Origin: Candidatus Methanofrustulum fimipullorum
Lineage (GTDB): Archaea > Halobacteriota > Methanosarcinia > Methanosarcinales > Methanosarcinaceae
Assembly: GCA_012518265.1 (NCBI GenBank)
Contig: JAAYST010000103.1
Location: 1-34,246, forward strand
Length of the DNA stretch: 34,246 nt
Reading direction: 5' to 3'
The notes beneath the pieces were generated by a model. It was not told the DNA's origin. It did no database searches and saw only the letters and a program-made list of their open reading frames with translations. This document shows, in pieces, positions 3,085-31,688 of the stretch (positions are counted from its first letter, which is position 1; every line of letters starts with the position of its first letter). The position numbers and the translations under genes are program-made.

Positions 3085-4131
3085 TCAGGGCATACTCGGT
3101 ATAAAAAGGCCTTCCGTTTCATCGAGACCAAACATTATATTCATATTTTGTATCGCTTGTCCCGATGCTCCTTTTACAAGGTTGTCTATTGCGGAAATTA
3201 TGACTGCTCTATTTGCGTCTTTTTGAACATCAACGTATATATCGCAGAAATTTGACCCTCTTACGTTTGCAAGAGAAGGCATTTCCGAAATGACTCTTAC
3301 AAACGGAGAATTTGCATAAAAGTCATTATATTTTTCAACCAGTTTTTCTGTGGATATTCTTCCTTCTCTTCCATCACTTACTTTGTCATCTAATATTATA
3401 TGTGCAGTTGTAAGTATTCCTCTCGTTGCGGCAATAATGTGCGGTGTGAAGTATATTTCATTTACTTCCGGTTGGAACCTTTGTATTTCCTGTTTCATTT
3501 CGGCAATATGTCTGTGAGCCGTTAAATTATAAGGAATTATATTTTCCGTTAAATTCGGAAAGTGGGATTTGGCGGACGGTTTATTTCCGGCGCCGGAAAT
3601 TCCGGTTTTCGAATCAAAAATCACCGTTTTAATTACTCCGGCAGCAGCAAGAGGTGCGGCTGCAAGGGATGCTCCCGTCGGAAAACATCCTGGATTTGAA
3701 ACAAGTCTGCTTTCTTTAATTTTTTTATGAGAATGAAGCTCCGGAATTCCGTAAACGATATCGCATCTCGGGTCTTTATGTTTCATATTGTAAACCTTTT
3801 CAAAAACATCAACTGAAAGCCTATAGTCTGCGCTTAAATCAACTATTTTACACTTTCCCAAATTTAACAAATCCGGTACATAATCCATAGCGGTTCCGTG
3901 CGGAACCGCCAAGAATACGACATCGCAATTCTTAGCCAAATCTTCAGTTGACGCTTCTGTAAATTTCAAATCGCAAAATCCTTTCAAATGCTCATGGACA
4001 TCCGATACTTTTTTTCCCGCTTCACTTCTCGATGTAGCATAAACGACTTCCGTTTTCGGATGTGCTGCCAAAAGACGCATTAATTCGCCGCCGGTATATC
4101 CGTTGGCGCCAATTATTCCTGCACGAATCAT
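3085..4131 (-). CDS. argC: N-acetyl-gamma-glutamyl-phosphate reductase ArgC
   Basis: NADPH-dependent reduction of N-acetylglutamyl phosphate to the semialdehyde in arginine synthesis. The nucleotide-binding GANGYTGGEL is close to the N-terminus and the catalytic cysteine lies in SNPGCFPTG. Length and overall order match the family. The ATG at 4131 is chosen because the protein then begins MIRAGIIGANGYTGG as in relatives and a GTGA ribosome site lies 5 nt before it; an in-frame GTG at 4140 would add three residues and overlap the TGA of the preceding dtxR-like gene. The 5-nt gap to that gene implies one transcript. No argB or argD is present in the window. Confidence 0.96.
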   Translation of the reverse strand: MIRAGIIGANGYTGGELMRLLAAHPKTEVVYATSRSEAGKKVSDVHEHLKGFCDLKFTEASTEDLAKNCDVVFLAVPHGTAMDYVPDLLNLGKCKIVDLSADYRLSVDVFEKVYNMKHKDPRCDIVYGIPELHSHKKIKESRLVSNPGCFPTGASLAAAPLAAAGVIKTVIFDSKTGISGAGNKPSAKSHFPNLTENIIPYNLTAHRHIAEMKQEIQRFQPEVNEIYFTPHIIAATRGILTTAHIILDDKVSDGREGRISTEKLVEKYNDFYANSPFVRVISEMPSLANVRGSNFCDIYVDVQKDANRAVIISAIDNLVKGASGQAIQNMNIMFGLDETEGLFIPSMP

Positions 4132-4136
4132 ATCTT

Positions 4137-4568
4137 TCACTTACTTTGCTTTTTATTCTTTTCAAAATCTTTAAATTTTTCTATAAGATTTTTTCCTTCT
4201 TTTGTTTTTGCAAATTCTTTAAAGTTTAAAAAAGTTTCATATGTCTCCATATCCAGGATATGTTCCATTTTACAAGCATCCTCGTCCGCAATTTCTTCAC
4301 AGACGCCCAAAACTTTTAAAAATTCATTTATTGAACTGAATTTCTCCTGTGTCGTTCTTGCAATTTCCTTTCCTCTTTTTGTGAGAGTAACTCCTCCGTA
4401 CTTTTCATAATTTATAAAACCGTCGTCAGCTAACTTTTTAAACATACCGGTTACACTCGAAGGTCCCACATCTAAAGCGTTAGCCAAGTCTTTGACTTGC
4501 GCATAACCTTTCTCCGCTACAATTTTATCGATTTCTTTTAAATAATCTTCTTTACGATCGGTTGGCAT
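4137..4568 (-). CDS. DtxR/MntR-family metal-dependent transcriptional regulator
   Basis: A DNA-binding repressor expected to use Fe(II) or Mn(II) as co-repressor. Residues 1-65 form a winged helix (AQVKDLANALDVGPSSVTGMFKKL). The dimerisation/metal domain carries the family motif DACKMEHILD near residue 100, with the Cys, Glu and His that bind metal in DtxR and IdeR. At 143 residues it lacks the C-terminal SH3-like domain, as in MntR. ATG with a GGGA-type ribosome site. It is the first gene of a tight cluster with argC, an unusual partner for a metal regulator. A 30-bp perfect palindrome lies 111 bp upstream in the divergent promoter region. The metal specificity is not determinable here. Confidence 0.9.
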   Translation of the reverse strand: MPTDRKEDYLKEIDKIVAEKGYAQVKDLANALDVGPSSVTGMFKKLADDGFINYEKYGGVTLTKRGKEIARTTQEKFSSINEFLKVLGVCEEIADEDACKMEHILDMETYETFLNFKEFAKTKEGKNLIEKFKDFEKNKKQSK

Positions 4569-4678
4569 ATATTTCCCTTTTCCCTTTCTTTTTATAAAAT
4601 CATTGAAATTATGATTAAAATAAATAATTGATTAAAATATTATTATAGTATTTATTTAATAGTTTAAATATTTATTCT

Positions 4679-7660: not shown

Positions 7661-7668
7661 TTTTTTTT

Positions 7669-7731
7669 CATTTTTTTGCTACGCCCCTCGCTTCCGTTTT
7701 TCCATTTTTTTGCTACGCCCCCTGCTTCCGT
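7669..7731. repeat. Pair of 29-bp direct repeats with a 34-bp period
   Basis: Both copies (7669-7697 and 7703-7731) read CATTTTTTTGCTACGCCCC, one variable base, then GCTTCCGT, with one mismatch in total. They start 9 bp after the DUF460 stop codon. The T-runs in each copy could act as weak transcription termination signals. Confidence 0.85.
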
Positions 7732-7792
7732 CTTTTTTGTTTTCGGCCGCCCATTTTTGGAATTTTTCAGTGACCCGTTTTTTTAATTCCAT

Positions 7793-7881
7793 GAAAAACC
7801 CGATTTTTTTTTTTTAATGTTCATTTAAAACCTGTTTTTCGTTTTATTCTTTTTTGGAAAACTCCAGGTTCGTTTTATTTT
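7793..7881 (-). repeat. Diverged, inverted copy of the 30-kb family A repeat
   Basis: Read on the minus strand it carries the elements AAAACGAACCTGGAG, AAGAATAAAACG, GTTTTAAAT and TCGGGTTTTTC. Three of these (CGAACCnGG, GTTTTAAAT, CGGGTTTTTC) recur in the same order in each family A unit at 30141-30481. Similarity judged by eye. Confidence 0.5.
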
Positions 7882-10240: not shown

Positions 10241-10587
10241 AAATAATTTCCTCTTTTTAAATACAAATGTTATGTATTCATACAACAGTTTATTTTTGTA
10301 ACACTATAAAGGTTGTATAGTATATAATCATATCTGTTTATAATATTATAAAACAAGAATGAAAAGCGGTCGAAGAGGGAAAATGGAGAATATAGAAAAA
10401 AAGAAAGAGATAAAAAAAGAAAGAGATAAAAAAAGAAAAAATAAAAAAAGAGAAAAATATTATATTTTTCAATAAAAACGGGTCGCCCGTTTTTATTCAT
10501 GCGGCGGCGCTTTTTTATGATTTTTTTCTCGGTCCTTTTTTTTATTTTTATAAAACTGTCGCCCGTTTTTTTTGTTTTGGGGATAAA
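10241..10587. other. Gene-free spacer upstream of the substrate-binding protein
   Basis: The left part is the probable promoter of the lipoprotein gene (several TATA-like ATTATATAC motifs near 10320 on the minus strand). The middle is A/G-rich low-complexity sequence (AAAGAGATAAAAAAAG repeated, 10400-10450). The right part carries the hairpin at 10471-10497 and GC islands (CGGGTCGCCCG, CTGTCGCCCG). A phenylalanine-rich minus-strand ORF here is considered spurious. Confidence 0.6.
10471..10497 (-). terminator. Hairpin terminator downstream of the CYTH gene
   Basis: Perfect 12-bp inverted repeat AATAAAAACGGG/CCCGTTTTTATT with a 3-nt loop. On the minus strand it is followed by a T-rich stretch. 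It lies 90 bp beyond the stop of the CYTH gene. Confidence 0.65.
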
Positions 10588-15188: not shown

Positions 15189-16832
15189 TTATTCGGTAAT
15201 AATTTTTATATTTGCAGGCATTTTAACAACGCTTCCGACTTTCAAACCGGCAATTTCCAGTATTCCCTGTTCGGCCGCAACATCTATAAGACGTTGAGTT
15301 ATAACACCGTCAAATACTAACGAATTTACTTTTACATCTCCTCTTTTAAGACGGTTCGTTAAATCCCTTACAGGGATTTCTTCTAAAATTTCCTCATTGT
15401 TTCCTATCAAGCGTGCAGACATCGTGCCTTTTAACTCATCCAAATTCTTTTCAATAAACGATTTTTCAAAAATTCCTTCATCTACAATATCGTCGTCAGT
15501 TTCAGCATCGTACCCATCGTATTGTTCCATGTGTTTGCTGCGCAGTTCCGTTTCAAACTCTTGCTTATCTTGATATTGATTGTCTTGGTATTGTTTTTCT
15601 TGATATTGATTATTTTGGTATTGTTTTTCTTGATAGTGATTATTTTGGTATTGTTTTTCTTGATAGTGATTGTCTTTGAATTGTTTTTCTTGATATTGTT
15701 TTTCCGGGAATTGCTTATCTTGATATTGTTTGTCTCGGAATTGTTTACCTTGATACTGTTTTTGATATTGTTTTATTTCTTGCTCTTCGTATTGTATTTC
15801 TTTTTCGTATTGTTTTTGTTCTTGTTGCGTTGTTTGTGTCTGATTTTCGTTTCCCTGCTTTTTATCTTCCATACGACTTCGAAGATTCGCTTTTCTTATG
15901 TCCGGGATTCTTTTAGGAGATTTTTTCTCCATAAAACGCGATGCGATAGTCGCTTTATTTGAGCCGGGGGGTTGTTTTACGGTTCTTAACGGTCTTGTGT
16001 AAGAAATTCCGTTTCTTTCAGCATATTGTTCAACAGGCAATTTTCTTCTAAGCGCTTGTATTATTTCTTTTTGAACAAGGTCTTCAACAGCTTTTCCGTC
16101 AGGCGGCCGTGCAACAAAATCCACTTTCGCAACTTGCAAAAGCTCACGTATTATAAGCTCTCCGCCGCGGTCGCCGTCAGTAAATACGGTTACGTTTTTC
16201 TTCGTTTTGGTAAGTTCGGCAACTTCCGGCGGAACACTTGTTCCTCCAACACTAATCGTGTTCTTAATTCCGTATTTTAAAAGATTTATAATATCTGCGC
16301 GCCCCTCAACTACGATTAAGGAGTCCGCCGTATAGTTCGGTCCTGCAGGGATTTTTGTTTTTCCGTAAGTTGTAACTTCTTCAATTCTTACAGATTCTCT
16401 AACCAAATCCGCAATTTCCTGAGATTCAAGCAAATCATCGTCAAACATTGACGAATATATTGTTTTTGCACGCTCGATAATATTTGCCCGTTTCGATGCA
16501 CGAACATCTTCTATTTTCGTTACTTCGACTTTTGCAAGGCAAGGCCCCACTCGTTCTATAGTTTCAAGAGATGCGGCCAAAACTGCAGTTCTTACTTTAT
16601 CAAGTCCGGACGGTACAAATATATTTCCGCGTGTTTTTCCCGCTTTTGAAGTAGTCATTACTTCTATGCGACCTATCCTTCCCGTTTTCTGCAATTCTCT
16701 CAGGTCAAGGTCTGAACCCAAAAGTCCTTCCGTTTGACCGAATATGGCACCAACGATGTCCGGTCTTTCTATGACACCGTCAGCATTGATTTTAGTATGA
16801 ATTATATATTTAGTTGTATCAGAACTTTGCAT
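15189..16832 (-). CDS. dnaG: Archaeal DnaG-type primase with a Gln/Tyr/Lys-rich repeat insertion
   Basis: Archaeal DnaG, a TOPRIM protein with primase activity that also associates with the RNA exosome in studied species. The archaeal N-terminal domain covers 1-165. The TOPRIM domain has the conserved Glu176 in [11 protein letters not shown] and the DxD pair Asp219/Asp221 in TDGDRGG. After about 320 the conserved core ends; residues 339-424 are tandem QYQEKQ-type repeats, and the typical C-terminal domain follows (about 440-547). The ATG at 16832 is preceded by a GGAG ribosome site 9 nt upstream; an upstream in-frame start at 16865 would add 11 atypical residues. It heads the likely operon with the following two genes. 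The insertion makes it longer than typical archaeal DnaG proteins. Confidence 0.94.
15561..15818. repeat. 15/30-bp tandem repeats encoding the Gln-rich linker of DnaG
   Basis: Units on the plus strand read TTGATA(T/G)TGATTATTTTGG or TTGATATTGTTTTTC-like alternations, giving a 30-bp (10-codon) higher-order period. The best conserved copies are at about 15570-15690. The encoded decapeptide is close to [10 protein letters not shown]. Confidence 0.88.
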
Positions 16833-17703
16833 GGTTCTTTTCTCCAGCGGACAAAAGAGACACATTAAAAAAATGAAGATTGTTCAAACCAAACTTTGCA
16901 AATTCCGTTTATTTCGAATACTTCAACTGAAATTACGAATTCGGTCGTAACTAATCCGATTACGATTGATACGATGTTGTCGTAAATAATTGATTAAATT
17001 TTAACAGCCGTTAATTTATAACAATTAACCCGAAATTGTGCTGTATGCAGTTCAAATTACCCTATTAATGCTAAACGATTGTTATGTTTTTGTATAGTTT
17101 TTATGAATATTTCAAATTATTGTATTGTATCCGCGCTTATTATCTTTTCTATTTTTCTGTTTTTATTTTTTTTCAGTTTTTTAGTAAGGAATAAGTATAA
17201 TGTATTACATTTTTAGTTAATGTTTTTTATTTAAACGGGTACTTAATAACTCGATTCGTTAATTCATTTCTAATTGTGATAATATGATTCTATAATTTTG
17301 ATTTATGATTTTTTTAACCATTACGGCAATATGCGCAATTCGAAATAAATAGAGATTTCTTTATTTCCTAATGTGGGTCATCTGCTATCCTTTTAGTATG
17401 AATTTGTAATTTTTAATTAATAATTATATTTAATAATAATGATTTAATAATAATGATTTAATAATTGAATTGTAGTATATTTATAAATTGTAGTATATTT
17501 ATATTATATACTTTGATAAATATGATATTTTAATATGAAATTTTAATTTTGATAAGTGTGATATATAGATTAAACTTATAGAATAAATAAATTTAATGAA
17601 CATATTAAGTTTTTATTAGTTTATAACTTTTACTATAGTTTATAACTTTTACTAAAGTTTATAACTTTTATTATAATTTATAACTTTTACTATATTTTCT
17701 ATT
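16833..17703. other. 870-bp gene-free spacer between kptA and dnaG
   Basis: No ORF with coding character, tRNA or strong hairpin was found on either strand. The dnaG-proximal part (16870-17100) is less A/T-biased and may hold the dnaG promoter or a diverged remnant. A weak stem GAAATAAA/TTTATTTC lies at 17342-17367. From 17430 on, direct repeats dominate: TTAATAATAATGA (three), ATTGTAGTATATTTATA (two) and the 19-bp array at 17618-17693. Confidence 0.55.
17618..17693. repeat. Four tandem 19-bp repeats just downstream of kptA
   Basis: Units at 17618, 17637, 17656 and 17675 read AGTTTATAACTTTTACTAT with one or two changes per unit. The array ends 10 bp from the kptA stop codon. No inverted symmetry, so it is not an obvious terminator. 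Confidence 0.88.
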
Positions 17704-27029: not shown

Positions 27030-29435
27030 TTAATTCGTGCTGCAGCATTTATCGTTACAGGCCGTATCAGTAATGATTTTATCTTTTATGTATGGTTTCG
27101 GTTTATAAAACAGAATTCTTTGTGCGTTTATTACAGCAATTATCGTAACTCCTACATCTGCAAATACCGACTCCCACATTGTTGCATACCCTGTAATTCC
27201 TAAAATCATTACTATAAATTTAATTCCGAGCGAAATTATAATATTTTGATATACGAGTTTTTTTGTGAATTTCGATATGTGAATGCTTTTTGGAATTTTT
27301 GTCAAATCGTCATTTAAAATAACGATGTCCGATGCTTCTATTGCGGCATCCGACCCGACAGTTCCCATCGTTATTCCGACATCGGATCGGACTAAAGCGG
27401 GTGCATCGTTTATTCCGTCTCCTATAAATATTGCGCTTTCGTCTCTTCCTCCTTTACCTTTCTCTTTTCCGTTTTTCTCTTTGATTTCTTCATATATTTC
27501 CAATTTATGTTCCGGCCGCAAATTTGAATATATGTTTTCTTTTTTAATACCGATACTTTCTCCTATATATTCCGCTTCCGATTTTCTGTCGCCTGTCAGC
27601 ATATAAATTTCTTTAATTCCCGCCTTTTTAATTTCTTCTATTGCAAATTTCGCATTCGGTTTCGGTTTGTCGGAGAGCATTATACTTCCAACATAGTTTT
27701 TATCGATTGCTACGAATACAACCGTGTTGTTTTTGTCTTTTATCGTATCGGTTATGTTTTTTATTCCTCTTTTTTTCATCAACTCGTAATTTCCGACAGT
27801 AATTTCTCCGAATTCAAATTCGGATACGACTCCGCCGCCCGGAAATTCTTCGTGTTTTTTCGCAAAGCTTTCGATTTTGTTATTTTTCAGAAATTCTTTT
27901 TTTATCGAAATCGCAATTGGGTGATTCGACTTTTCTTCCGCATATGCGGCATACATTAAAATATCATCTTTACTCAATTTTTTTTCTGAAAAGCCTAAAT
28001 TTGCGGGCTTTATGGAAACAATTTCAAAATCACCTTTAGTTAGAGTTCCCGTTTTATCAAAAACGACAATTTTTGATTTTTCCAAAGCTTCAATATATTG
28101 ACTTCCTTTTATTATAATTCCGTTTTTGGAAGCCGTTCCGATTGCTCCGAAATAACACAAAGGAACGGACAAAACGAGTGCGCACGGGCACGAAATCACT
28201 ATGAAAATAAGAGCTCTGTAGATCCACACCTCAGCCGGCATTTTAAATAAAAATGTCGGAACGGCCGCAATTAAAATTGCGGCCGAAATGACGGCGGGTG
28301 TGTAGTAGCGTGCAAATTTCGTTATAAACTTTTCAGCGTTTGACTTTTTGTGAGATGCGTTCATTACAAGATCCAATATCCTTGATGCCGTAGAGTCTTT
28401 ACTCGTTTTTGAAACTTCCACGTTTAAAACGCCGGTTTGATTTACACAACCGCTTAAAACCTCGTCTCCCGGCTCAACATCAACCGGCATACTTTCTCCG
28501 GTTATCGATGAAACGTCTATTCTCGATTTCCCCGAAATTACAAACCCGTCAAGCGGAATTCTCTCGCCGGGATATATTTGAATTACGTCTTTTACTTTTA
28601 TATGCTCAACAGGCTTTTTTTTCGTTCTCGGTATTATTTGCGCACCGTTTCCCGTTTCACATAAAAGCCTTGCTTCATCGGGCTTTATAGAAAGTAGCGA
28701 ATTTATTGAATCTTTTGAATTGTCTAACGCCATTTGTTGGAGCAATTCTCCTATTCTGTAAAAAACCATAACGGCCACAGCTTCATTATATTCACCGATG
28801 ACAATTGCAACGACAGTTGCAATTGTCATCAACAGATTTTCATCAAAAAAGTTTTTCGATTTTATATTTCTCGCGGTTTTCATTAAAACAGGCGTTCCGA
28901 CCAAAAAATATGAAACAGTGCAAATTATAAACGAATAAGGTTTAAAATACGGTACAAATGAAATTAAAAAAAGAATTAAAGAAGTAGCTATAATTGCGAT
29001 TTCTTTTAAATTTTCTCTTCTTTTCAAGTTTTTTATAAAAAAGTTTTCCGAAACAGTTTTGTTTTTGCCTTCGGTTTTGTTTTTATTTTTTCCTTCGGTT
29101 TTATTTTTGTTTTTGCCTTCGGTTATATTTTTGTTTTTATTTTTGTTTTCATCGGTCGGCACTATATAAACATCGTGTTCTATTTTTTTCATAGAATCTT
29201 CAATCCGCTTCAGAAAATCCGATTCATTTTCTTTATTTACTTTATTTTCTTCATTTTTTTTATATTCTTCATTTGCATTTATATTTATATTATATTCGAT
29301 TTTCATAACTTTCGTTATAATATCTATTGACACGAATTGTACTTCTTCCATTTTTTGAATTTCATGTTCCATTTTTGCAGCACATGAGGCACAACCAAGG
29401 TTTTTAACATTAAAATATTTAACAACATTTCCCAT
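27030..29435 (-). CDS. P1B-2-type heavy-metal (Zn/Cd/Pb) exporting ATPase
   Basis: Membrane ATPase that exports soft divalent cations. An N-terminal HMA domain has GCASC (C15, C18), followed by a repeat-rich linker at about 95-130. The core has TGES (312-315), the membrane metal site SCPCAL (C416, C418), DKTGTLT with the phosphorylated Asp460, the HP motif SNHPIA (His505), and GDGINDAP (672-679). Asp760 in FADVGVTIIAVINAQRIL is the P1B-2 signature that points to Zn, Cd or Pb rather than Cu. The tail has C793, C797 and C798, a possible extra metal-binding site. ATG with a GAGGGA ribosome site. It lies 69 bp downstream of the arsR-type gene on the same strand, forming a classic sensor/exporter operon. 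Confidence 0.95.
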   Translation of the reverse strand: MGNVVKYFNVKNLGCASCAAKMEHEIQKMEEVQFVSIDIITKVMKIEYNININANEEYKKNEENKVNKENESDFLKRIEDSMKKIEHDVYIVPTDENKNKNKNITEGKNKNKTEGKNKNKTEGKNKTVSENFFIKNLKRRENLKEIAIIATSLILFLISFVPYFKPYSFIICTVSYFLVGTPVLMKTARNIKSKNFFDENLLMTIATVVAIVIGEYNEAVAVMVFYRIGELLQQMALDNSKDSINSLLSIKPDEARLLCETGNGAQIIPRTKKKPVEHIKVKDVIQIYPGERIPLDGFVISGKSRIDVSSITGESMPVDVEPGDEVLSGCVNQTGVLNVEVSKTSKDSTASRILDLVMNASHKKSNAEKFITKFARYYTPAVISAAILIAAVPTFLFKMPAEVWIYRALIFIVISCPCALVLSVPLCYFGAIGTASKNGIIIKGSQYIEALEKSKIVVFDKTGTLTKGDFEIVSIKPANLGFSEKKLSKDDILMYAAYAEEKSNHPIAISIKKEFLKNNKIESFAKKHEEFPGGGVVSEFEFGEITVGNYELMKKRGIKNITDTIKDKNNTVVFVAIDKNYVGSIMLSDKPKPNAKFAIEEIKKAGIKEIYMLTGDRKSEAEYIGESIGIKKENIYSNLRPEHKLEIYEEIKEKNGKEKGKGGRDESAIFIGDGINDAPALVRSDVGITMGTVGSDAAIEASDIVILNDDLTKIPKSIHISKFTKKLVYQNIIISLGIKFIVMILGITGYATMWESVFADVGVTIIAVINAQRILFYKPKPYIKDKIITDTACNDKCCSTN
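29070..29141. repeat. 24-bp tandem repeats in the linker of the metal ATPase
   Basis: About three units beginning TTCGGTT and continuing TTGTTTTTGCC-like on the plus strand, at 29070, 29094 and 29118. They encode TEGKNKNK octads between the HMA domain and the first membrane helix, in frame. Confidence 0.85.
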
Positions 29436-29504: not shown

Positions 29505-29894
29505 TTATTTTATTTCAGTTACGTGTTCGAATCCCTGTTCGAAAATTTTGTATACGTGTTCATCATCGAGCGAATAATATACGACTTTTCCTTCTCTTCT
29601 GAATTTTACAATTTTCGCTTGTTTCAGCACTCTTAACTGATGAGATATTGCAGAAGAACTCATTCCGAGAAGATTTGCCAAATCGCACACACACATTTCC
29701 GATTTAAACAACGCAAAAATTATTCTCACACGCGTAAAATCCCCAAAAACTTTGAAAAGATCTGAAATTTGCTCCAAAATTTCGTCGTCAGGCATTTCAG
29801 TTTTTACATCTTTTATGTTTTCCGGATGAATCGTAGAAATCTGACAGATTTCTATATCGGAAAAGTCGTCTTCGTTTCCTTGCTTTTTTCTCAT
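29505..29894 (-). CDS. ArsR/SmtB-family metal-sensing repressor
   Basis: Winged-helix repressor that releases DNA on binding metal. The recognition helix is SSSAISHQLRVLKQA. Two known types of sensor site are present. The alpha5 zinc site is complete with SmtB spacing: Asp111-x-His113, then His124-x-x-Glu127 (DEHVYKIFEQGFEHVTE). The alpha3 region has C68, C70 and D71 in EMCVCDL, and a further C17 in the N-terminal arm could complete a CadC-like thiolate site. This fits Zn and Cd/Pb sensing, matching the P1B-2 exporter downstream. ATG with a GGT-type ribosome site. Tandem operators overlap its promoter, so autoregulation is expected. Confidence 0.94.
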   Translation of the reverse strand: MRKKQGNEDDFSDIEICQISTIHPENIKDVKTEMPDDEILEQISDLFKVFGDFTRVRIIFALFKSEMCVCDLANLLGMSSSAISHQLRVLKQAKIVKFRREGKVVYYSLDDEHVYKIFEQGFEHVTEIK

Positions 29895-30058: not shown

Positions 30059-30506
30059 AATAAAATTCTAAAAGAATAAAACGCAGCAACCGTAAAATTC
30101 TAAAAGAATAAAACTCAGCTCGTTTTTTTCACGAAATCTAGAAAAAACGAACCCGTGGAAATCTCGAAAAGCACCGGCCAAAAATAAAAAAAACGGAAAA
30201 CGGGCGTTTCAAATAAAAAACAAAAAGCCGAATCCGGGTTTTCTTTTAAAAAATTAAAAAACGGAGCGACCGTTAAAATTCTAAAAAAGAATAAAACGGA
30301 ACGACCTTTTAAATCCTAAAAATTAGGAAAAACGAACCCGGGGAAATCTCGAAAAGCGCCGGGCAAAAATCAAAAAAACGGAATACGGGGCGTTTTAAAT
30401 AAAAAACGAAAATCCGAATCCGGGTTTTTCTTAAAAAAAATAAAACGGAGCAGCCGGTAGAATTCTAAAAAGAATAAAACGTAACAGTCGTTAGAATTCT
30501 AAAAAA
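30059..30506 (+). repeat. Repeat family A: two ~155-bp direct repeats plus five short hairpin units
   Basis: Long copies at about 30141-30298 and 30326-30481 share AACGAACCCG(T/G)GGAAATC, CGAAAAGC(A/G)CCGG, GTTTnAAATAAAAAAC and CGAATCCGGGTTTT in the same order, offset about 184 bp. Interleaved is a shorter unit, ATTCT-A(n)-AGAAT-AAAACG followed by a GCAnCCG-like core, at 30065, 30097, 30278 and 30462, with a partial one at 30496. ATTCT and AGAAT can pair over an A-rich loop. Confidence 0.8.
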
Positions 30507-30810
30507 AATAAAAAAAGATATTTGGTAAAATAAAATTATTTAAGTGTTTTATGTATTTTTATAAATTTAAATTAATATTTTCCAATCATATGATTCATTC
30601 ATATGTTTCAATTCATATGTTTGGTATTTTTAGTGTTTTACTGTTTTTTATATTTTTAGTATTTATAATATTTTTAATATTTTTAGTATTTATAATATTT
30701 TTAGTGTTTTTATTATATATCATCACTCAAAAGTAAAAATATATAATAATATCACAATATGTTAATCTATTATAAAATGTTGTTGTATAAATGCATTAAA
30801 AAAAATGGAG

Positions 30811-31110
30811 AAAAAGTTGGATAAAAACGTGCCGTGATTTTTTTAATTAGAAAAACGAGTACGGGGGAATTCCTAAAAATGAATTAAAAGAAGCAGCCGG
30901 AAAAATCATGAAAAAAGTAGAAAAAAACGTACCGTTTTCTTTTAATTAGAAAAACGAGCACGGAGAAATTCCTAAAAATGAATTAAAAGAAGCAACCGGA
31001 AAAATCATGAAAAAAAGTAGGGAAAAAACGTGCCGGGATTTCTTTTAATTAGAAAAACGAACACGGAGAAATTCCTAAAAACAAATAAAAAAGCAACCGA
31101 AAAAATAGTG
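30811..31110 (+). repeat. Repeat family B: three tandem ~100-bp units
   Basis: Units 30811-30910, 30911-31009 and 31010-31110 each read AAAAAAGTAG, AAAAACGTGCCG, TTTTAATTAGAAAAACGA, CACGGAGAAATTCC, GAATTAAAAGAAGCAACCGG and AAAAATCATG in that order. The last half-unit, AATTCCTAAAAATGAATTAA then AGCnnCCGG, matches the short hairpin unit of family A, so A and B appear related. Confidence 0.88.
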
Positions 31111-31189
31111 AAAAGGGCTGAGCCGCAAAAAAAACGCGGCGGCCGTTTTTTTTTCAAAAAAAAACTATTTGATTCAGTTTTTTTTCAAA

Positions 31190-31223
31190 AAAAAGAAAAA
31201 ACCGCATACGGTTTTTTCTTTTT
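31190..31223 (-). terminator. Terminator hairpin of the DUF5684 gene
   Basis: Perfect 15-bp stem AAAAAGAAAAAACCG with a 4-nt loop CATA, 15 bp after the stop codon. On the minus strand it is followed by further T-rich sequence. Confidence 0.75.
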
Positions 31224-31238
31224 AAAGAATATATTTTA

Positions 31239-31688
31239 TTATGACTCTTGTTTCATATATCTTTCTTTATAATGCGGCCCTATATACTTTGATTTTCCAA
31301 AGCCTAATATAATCCAAAATATCGGTGCAAATAAAATTAAACCTATTGTATATATTATGGGGCTAGAAACGTCAAATCTTTTAGACAAATTATAGAATAT
31401 ATTGGCATATAATATAATAGAGAAAACAAAGCCGATAATCGGAATTAAATTTATAAAAAAAGCTAATAATCCGTGCAAACCAGACAATCCAGCTATTTCC
31501 GCTAATACCATCAAATTATAAATAGGTATTATTGAATACCAACCTTTTTCTCCTGCTTTTGTAAATACTTTCCACCTTGCGGCTAATATAATTATAAACA
31601 AAAATATTGAAAAACCGATGAAAATTAAATATGTTAAAAGTAATCCTGCGCTCATCAATATTTCTGATAAATATACTTGACTTTCCAT
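31239..31688 (-). CDS. DUF5684-type small membrane protein
   Basis: A 149-residue membrane protein with a hydrophobic helix at about 12-36 and three more at about 70-135. The diagnostic segment is KAGEKGWYSIIPIYNLMVLAEIAG (44-67 in pattern), the DUF5684 signature, and the C-terminal region LFAPIFWIILGFGKSKYIG is also typical. The family has no established function; members occur in bacteria and archaea, often near signal-peptidase or secretion genes, but no such neighbour is seen here. ATG with an AGGAAG ribosome site about 9 nt upstream. Its promoter region has a TGTGAC-T-GTCACA palindrome resembling the one before apgM. Confidence 0.8.
   Translation of the reverse strand: MESQVYLSEILMSAGLLLTYLIFIGFSIFLFIIILAARWKVFTKAGEKGWYSIIPIYNLMVLAEIAGLSGLHGLLAFFINLIPIIGFVFSIILYANIFYNLSKRFDVSSPIIYTIGLILFAPIFWIILGFGKSKYIGPHYKERYMKQES

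Follow-up and report, generated by a model that had tools for sequence, protein, structure and literature searches.

A mosaic array of head-to-tail modules in Candidatus Methanofrustulum fimipullorum and related arrays at about 80 intergenic loci of the same genome

We analyzed a 34,246-nucleotide stretch of the Candidatus Methanofrustulum fimipullorum genome (contig JAAYST010000103.1, hereafter the window), in which a repeat-rich spacer lies between two genes on the minus strand. The 5' end of an ArsR-type regulator gene (29505-29894; Pfam HTH_5, E=1.4e-16) faces the repeats from one side, and a DUF5684 gene (31239-31688; Pfam, E=4.9e-14) turns its 3' end towards their downstream end. The sequence-only reading had placed two related arrays in this spacer. 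The shared modules held up but the division into separate arrays did not, and positions 30059-31225 are better described as a single mosaic array, which we confirmed to be real.

The family A part of this array (30059-30513, plus strand) consists of A units of 34-35 bp and two composite copies containing a C core, in the module order A C A A C A A, as based on TRF and on genome-wide homologues. TRF placed the short units at 30059-30113, 30247-30322, and 30432-30513, and the two long copies (~30110-30275 and ~30295-30460) align well across ~165 bp. A core model, R2, was built from an alignment (A3) of 34 copies that does not contain the copy at 7.7-7.9 kb of the window. R2 matched both C-core modules, the first (AAAACGAACCCGTGGAAATCTCGAAAAGCACCGGCC...) at 30144-30209 (plus strand; E=1.1e-8 genome-wide) and the second at 30329-30388 (plus strand; E=5.8e-10, this copy being itself within the training alignment). 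The family B part (30811-31114, plus strand) comprises three 99-bp composite units (TRF period 99, 3.0 copies, 86% matches). The full 99-bp unit was found only here, with partial matches elsewhere, and its sub-modules recur in family A, as had been proposed: positions 30934-31026 match family A by BLAST (E=3.3e-4), and a degenerate C core at 31097-31152 (plus strand; R2 E=0.0036 genome-wide) closes the family B part. The array stretch ends in a terminator-like hairpin with a 15-bp stem, AAAAAGAAAAAACCG-CATA-CGGTTTTTTCTTTTT (31190-31223, plus strand; fold -16.2 kcal/mol, z=-6.65), located ~16 bp from the DUF5684 stop codon and matching in type the hairpin module found within other arrays.

The inverted copy suspected at 7.7-7.9 kb is also real. 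This diverged solo copy, which could be aligned, lies 3' of a DUF460 gene (7665-7881, minus strand), is matched by R2 at 7721-7781 (minus strand; E=3.9e-6 over the 1.5 Mb genome), and retains the order hairpin, core, GGGGCGTAGCA module. The DUF460 protein, together with the related genomes, indicates an archaeal host. A third, weaker candidate, with the core adjoining a hairpin, is located at 10473-10525 (minus strand; R2 E=0.0021 genome-wide). Tandem repeats within reading frames were also seen in the window: a 24-bp repeat (29057-29138, 3.4 copies, an 8-residue repeat) in a heavy-metal P-type ATPase ORF (27030-29435, minus strand), and a 30-bp repeat (15561-15774, 7.2 copies, a 10-residue protein repeat) in the ORF at 15189-16865 (minus strand).

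Further copies, whose absence would have refuted the observation, are abundant in the organism's own genome. BLAST with the window stretch gave 198 matches at E<=10, scattered over many contigs, and a second query added loci; the core model matched 139 places at E<=0.01 in the whole assembly, adding 16 clusters. Module profiles, with overlaps removed, counted 161 A, 96 Z, and 92 C copies (~350 modules) in 63 clusters, so that with the 16 later clusters the genome holds ~80 intergenic arrays or loci. The same profiles had no match at E<0.01 in dinucleotide-resampled sequence. These copy numbers were taken from searches and fetched stretches of the genome and are lower bounds, since the assembly has a completeness of 81% and 11 arrays come within ~425 bp of a contig end.

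Three main modules, A (34 bp), Z (about 54 bp), and C (about 70 bp), make up the arrays, together with a hairpin module that often sits between C and the following module and whose arms vary together. Most modules start with AATAAAACG. The modules run head to tail on one strand in 63 of 63 clusters, with no mixed-strand cluster, and spacing ranges between about 29 bp and more than 100 bp. We found that a cyclic order Z-A-C is preferred (123 Z>A, A>C, and C>Z transitions vs 51 reversed; p=5e-8, adjacent transitions not being fully independent) and that tandem ZZ and AA runs are common. The end modules are variable: the first is A in 22, Z in 15, and C in 12 arrays, and the last is C in 20, A in 18, and Z in 11. 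Identity is higher within than between arrays for Z (.877 vs.817), A (.793 vs.738), and C (.839 vs.643; 0/1000 permutations each), and Z copies reach 87% mean column identity across loci. The greater likeness of units within an array supports local tandem amplification, and the modules common to many sites demonstrate spread between sites. Moreover, one array strand carries 5.70 A4 runs but 0.81 T4 runs per 100 nt, a seven-fold asymmetry, compared with 2.05 each in other intergenic DNA; transcripts entering from the array's downstream end would therefore meet many U4 tracts. At two loci (L077 near 3980-4620; L098 near 2230-2300), same-strand arrays include two modules with extended stretches that are reverse complements of one another (CGGCGTATCATTGACAC, GTGTCAATGATACGCCG), hinting at a larger ancestral inverted repeat.

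The suggestion that this is a dispersed intergenic element and not a decayed gene was borne out by its ~80 loci, with only three of the first 63 clusters overlapping an ORF of at least 100 aa. The 34 bp unit, which is not a multiple of three, likewise counts against a decayed gene. With genes taken as simple longest-ORF calls of at least 100 aa plus tRNA genes, which may be wrong in single cases, 24 clusters are flanked by convergent genes and 6 by divergent ones (p=0.0014), the opposite of long intergenic gaps without arrays (3 convergent, 15 divergent). Gene 3' ends form 61 of 96 flanks at arrays vs 29 of 82 in array-free long intergenic gaps (p=2.8e-4). In arrays with a tRNA gene nearby, this gene borders the downstream end and points its 3' end at the array (8/8 such arrays). 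Overall, 53 of 72 downstream flanks are gene 3' ends, compared with 42 of 70 upstream flanks, a difference that is not significant (p=0.11), and gene 5' ends occupy 19 downstream flanks. Unit orientation between co-directional genes was 20:13 (p=0.30, not significant), and in the later 16 clusters the tandem orientation was the same in three cases and opposite in two. Replication-linked orientation was considered and rejected, as the array strand was associated with neither the GC skew (p=0.54) nor the AT skew (p=0.41) of the flanks.

In relatives, the module profiles found no match at E<0.01, whether in 180 kb from a genome of the same genus or in 400 kb from one of a sister genus. The Z and C models had no match in 111 other genomes of the taxonomic family under the stricter filters of these wide searches, bar one marginal C match. 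The exact A-unit pattern had no match outside the organism's own genome in 84,980 named genomes or IMG/VR; as judged by this one strict pattern, a viral carrier was not apparent. The same-genus genome (G001) is diverged and holds no copies. Listed in the same genus, G001 has 50% GC vs 34% in the fetched stretches of our genome, and it carries numerous non-dispersed tandem repeats of its own (L111-L130). Weak BLAST matches in a sister-genus genome (G023) were rejected as arrays, being a terminator-like site and a single short match. A terminator-like inverted repeat there (L099 near 1400-1550) resembles the A unit and is perhaps the sort of sequence from which the A unit arose. The sister genus, g10, has a different dispersed intergenic element of ~400-500 bp in four genomes, built from a CAACCGCCCGCTAATTT-like start, the hairpin CCGTTCGC-GCGAACGG, a 25-27 bp tandem array, and an end resembling GCGCGCGAGC; its sites in G023 are L131:18270-18660, L132, L135, L142, L145, and L147. 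The papers covered by a limited literature search do not describe such a family for this lineage.

Bacteria are the best-known hosts of composite interspersed repeats, whose origin and role there are still debated. In our best reading, the archaeal repeat works like pneumococcal BOX or enterobacterial BIMEs and is a member of neither. BOX of Streptococcus pneumoniae likewise has distinct modules, one or more of them in tandem, occurs at about 100 intergenic loci, is enriched between convergent genes, and is nearly species-restricted (PMC3049150). The defined module order and internal tandem copies by which BOX is recognized are also found in the archaeal arrays (Z-A-C 123:51; ZZ and AA runs). 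However, BOX is bounded by boxA and boxC as outer modules and has terminal inverted repeats as well as target duplications (PMC3049150), whereas the ends of our arrays vary; the host here is archaeal, and no sequence relation is claimed. BIMEs and REPs are similarly mosaic clusters of short units that are extragenic, high in copy number, and species-specific, but the palindromic units of BIMEs alternate in orientation and are accompanied by RAYT (Y1) transposases (PMC2817692), whereas the archaeal units all run head to tail and the Y1 transposase (PF01797) is absent from the 81%-complete genome. SPRITE repeats share the terminator-like character and the location near gene 3' ends, but each is a short simple repeat (PMC3049150) and not a modular array. 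Borg tandem repeats are archaeal, head-to-tail, genome-scattered, and enriched in A on one strand, but they are perfect, nearly all locus-unique, and about half of them lie inside ORFs (PMC9879509), in contrast to the imperfect units described here (within-array identity 0.79-0.88), which are intergenic and common to ~80 loci. The g10 element (L131-L150) comes from the same taxonomic family and is also intergenic and modular with a tandem array, yet it differs in sequence, forms an ordered unit with recurrent ends, and is absent from our genome. A CRISPR array was rejected, as the units are contiguous and diverged without spacers, as opposed to identical repeats with unique spacers. An IS200/IS605-derived element or a retro-element was also rejected, with TnpB (PF07282) and reverse transcriptase (PF00078) absent from the 81%-complete genome.

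On balance, we consider it probable, with moderate confidence, that the arrays form a composite (mosaic) interspersed repeat, specific to this species, in an archaeal chromosome, and that it works in four steps. Slippage or unequal recombination would lengthen and shorten arrays locally, keeping units within an array alike. Modules would occasionally be copied between intergenic sites, whether by a transposase, template switching, or gene conversion. Copies would survive where they are least harmful, next to the 3' ends of genes and at a distance from promoters. Finally, the series of U4 tracts would halt RNA polymerase entering at the downstream end, so that the element may act as a one-sided multi-signal terminator. 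In Methanococcus maripaludis, termination improves with the number of U4 tracts (PMC8716108), and the sequence asymmetry of the arrays suggests a possible terminator role here. For pneumococcal repeats, the gene-end preference has been argued to fit tolerance (PMC3049150), and that of the arrays fits it as well. Given the 20:13 orientation and the non-significant downstream excess of 3' ends, tolerance alone may explain the placing.

Mobility of a more conventional kind was one of the possibilities raised from sequence alone. The dispersal of the family agrees with a non-autonomous mobile repeat, but neither terminal repeats, nor fixed end modules, nor a candidate transposase were found. A MITE- or REPIN-like element, inserted as a unit by a transposase encoded elsewhere and then amplified in tandem, would account for the common module order at ~80 dispersed loci, the high identity of Z copies across loci, and a 3' location like that of BOX, RUP, and SPRITE (PMC3049150). 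The varying first and last modules, however, leave the ends unfixed, and Y1 transposase, TnpB, and reverse transcriptase, the three families covered by the search, are all missing from the 81%-complete genome, making this a possible but clearly less probable account. We regard as unlikely a further-reaching proposal, in which a transposase-free archaeal mosaic element, its modules copied between intergenic sites, has been turned into genome-wide one-sided multi-U-tract terminators, with lineages of the family evolving their own unrelated versions. About equally unlikely is the idea that selection keeps the arrays as functional terminators or insulators and that their spread is secondary. The seven-fold A4/T4 strand asymmetry, the gene 3' ends on the U-rich reading side (8/8 tRNA arrays and 53/72 downstream flanks), and the co-varying hairpins speak for it, but the tandem orientation is not significantly biased, gene 5' ends make up 19 of the downstream flanks, and all relatives searched lack the arrays, so that the job would not be a general one.

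A protein-binding array serving the nucleoid, segregation, or regulation would fit the near-palindromic AACG-N7-CGTT, the conserved GC islands with A tracts between them, and the high conservation of Z. We nevertheless judge it quite improbable, given the variable spacing, the missing association of array strand with flank GC skew, the lack of a candidate protein, and a sister genome without arrays. Least probable is a transcribed, structured non-coding RNA repeat, which the initial reading had also listed. The arms of the hairpin module do co-vary (stem score 12.75 vs 9.14, sd 0.57, for swapped arms; 0/60 in the arm-swap test), and one weakly supported hairpin lies upstream of the core, but the correlated arms belong to this one terminator-like module. 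RNAalifold returned no pairs on 42 aligned copies of the core, and Rfam had no match in the array. The proposed ATTCT/AGAAT stem is not compensated either: in the 89 of 170 units that could be parsed, the 5' side varies (ATCCT 22, ATCTT 21, ATTCT 17) and the 3' side is mostly GAAT.

For the genome itself, the arrays may explain part of the assembly fragmentation, with 11 of them so close to contig ends. More broadly, ~80 strictly one-directional arrays beside gene ends in one archaeal genome only, with another family in the sister genus, amount to a natural experiment on how repeats originate without an obvious transposase and on whether such repeats become terminators.
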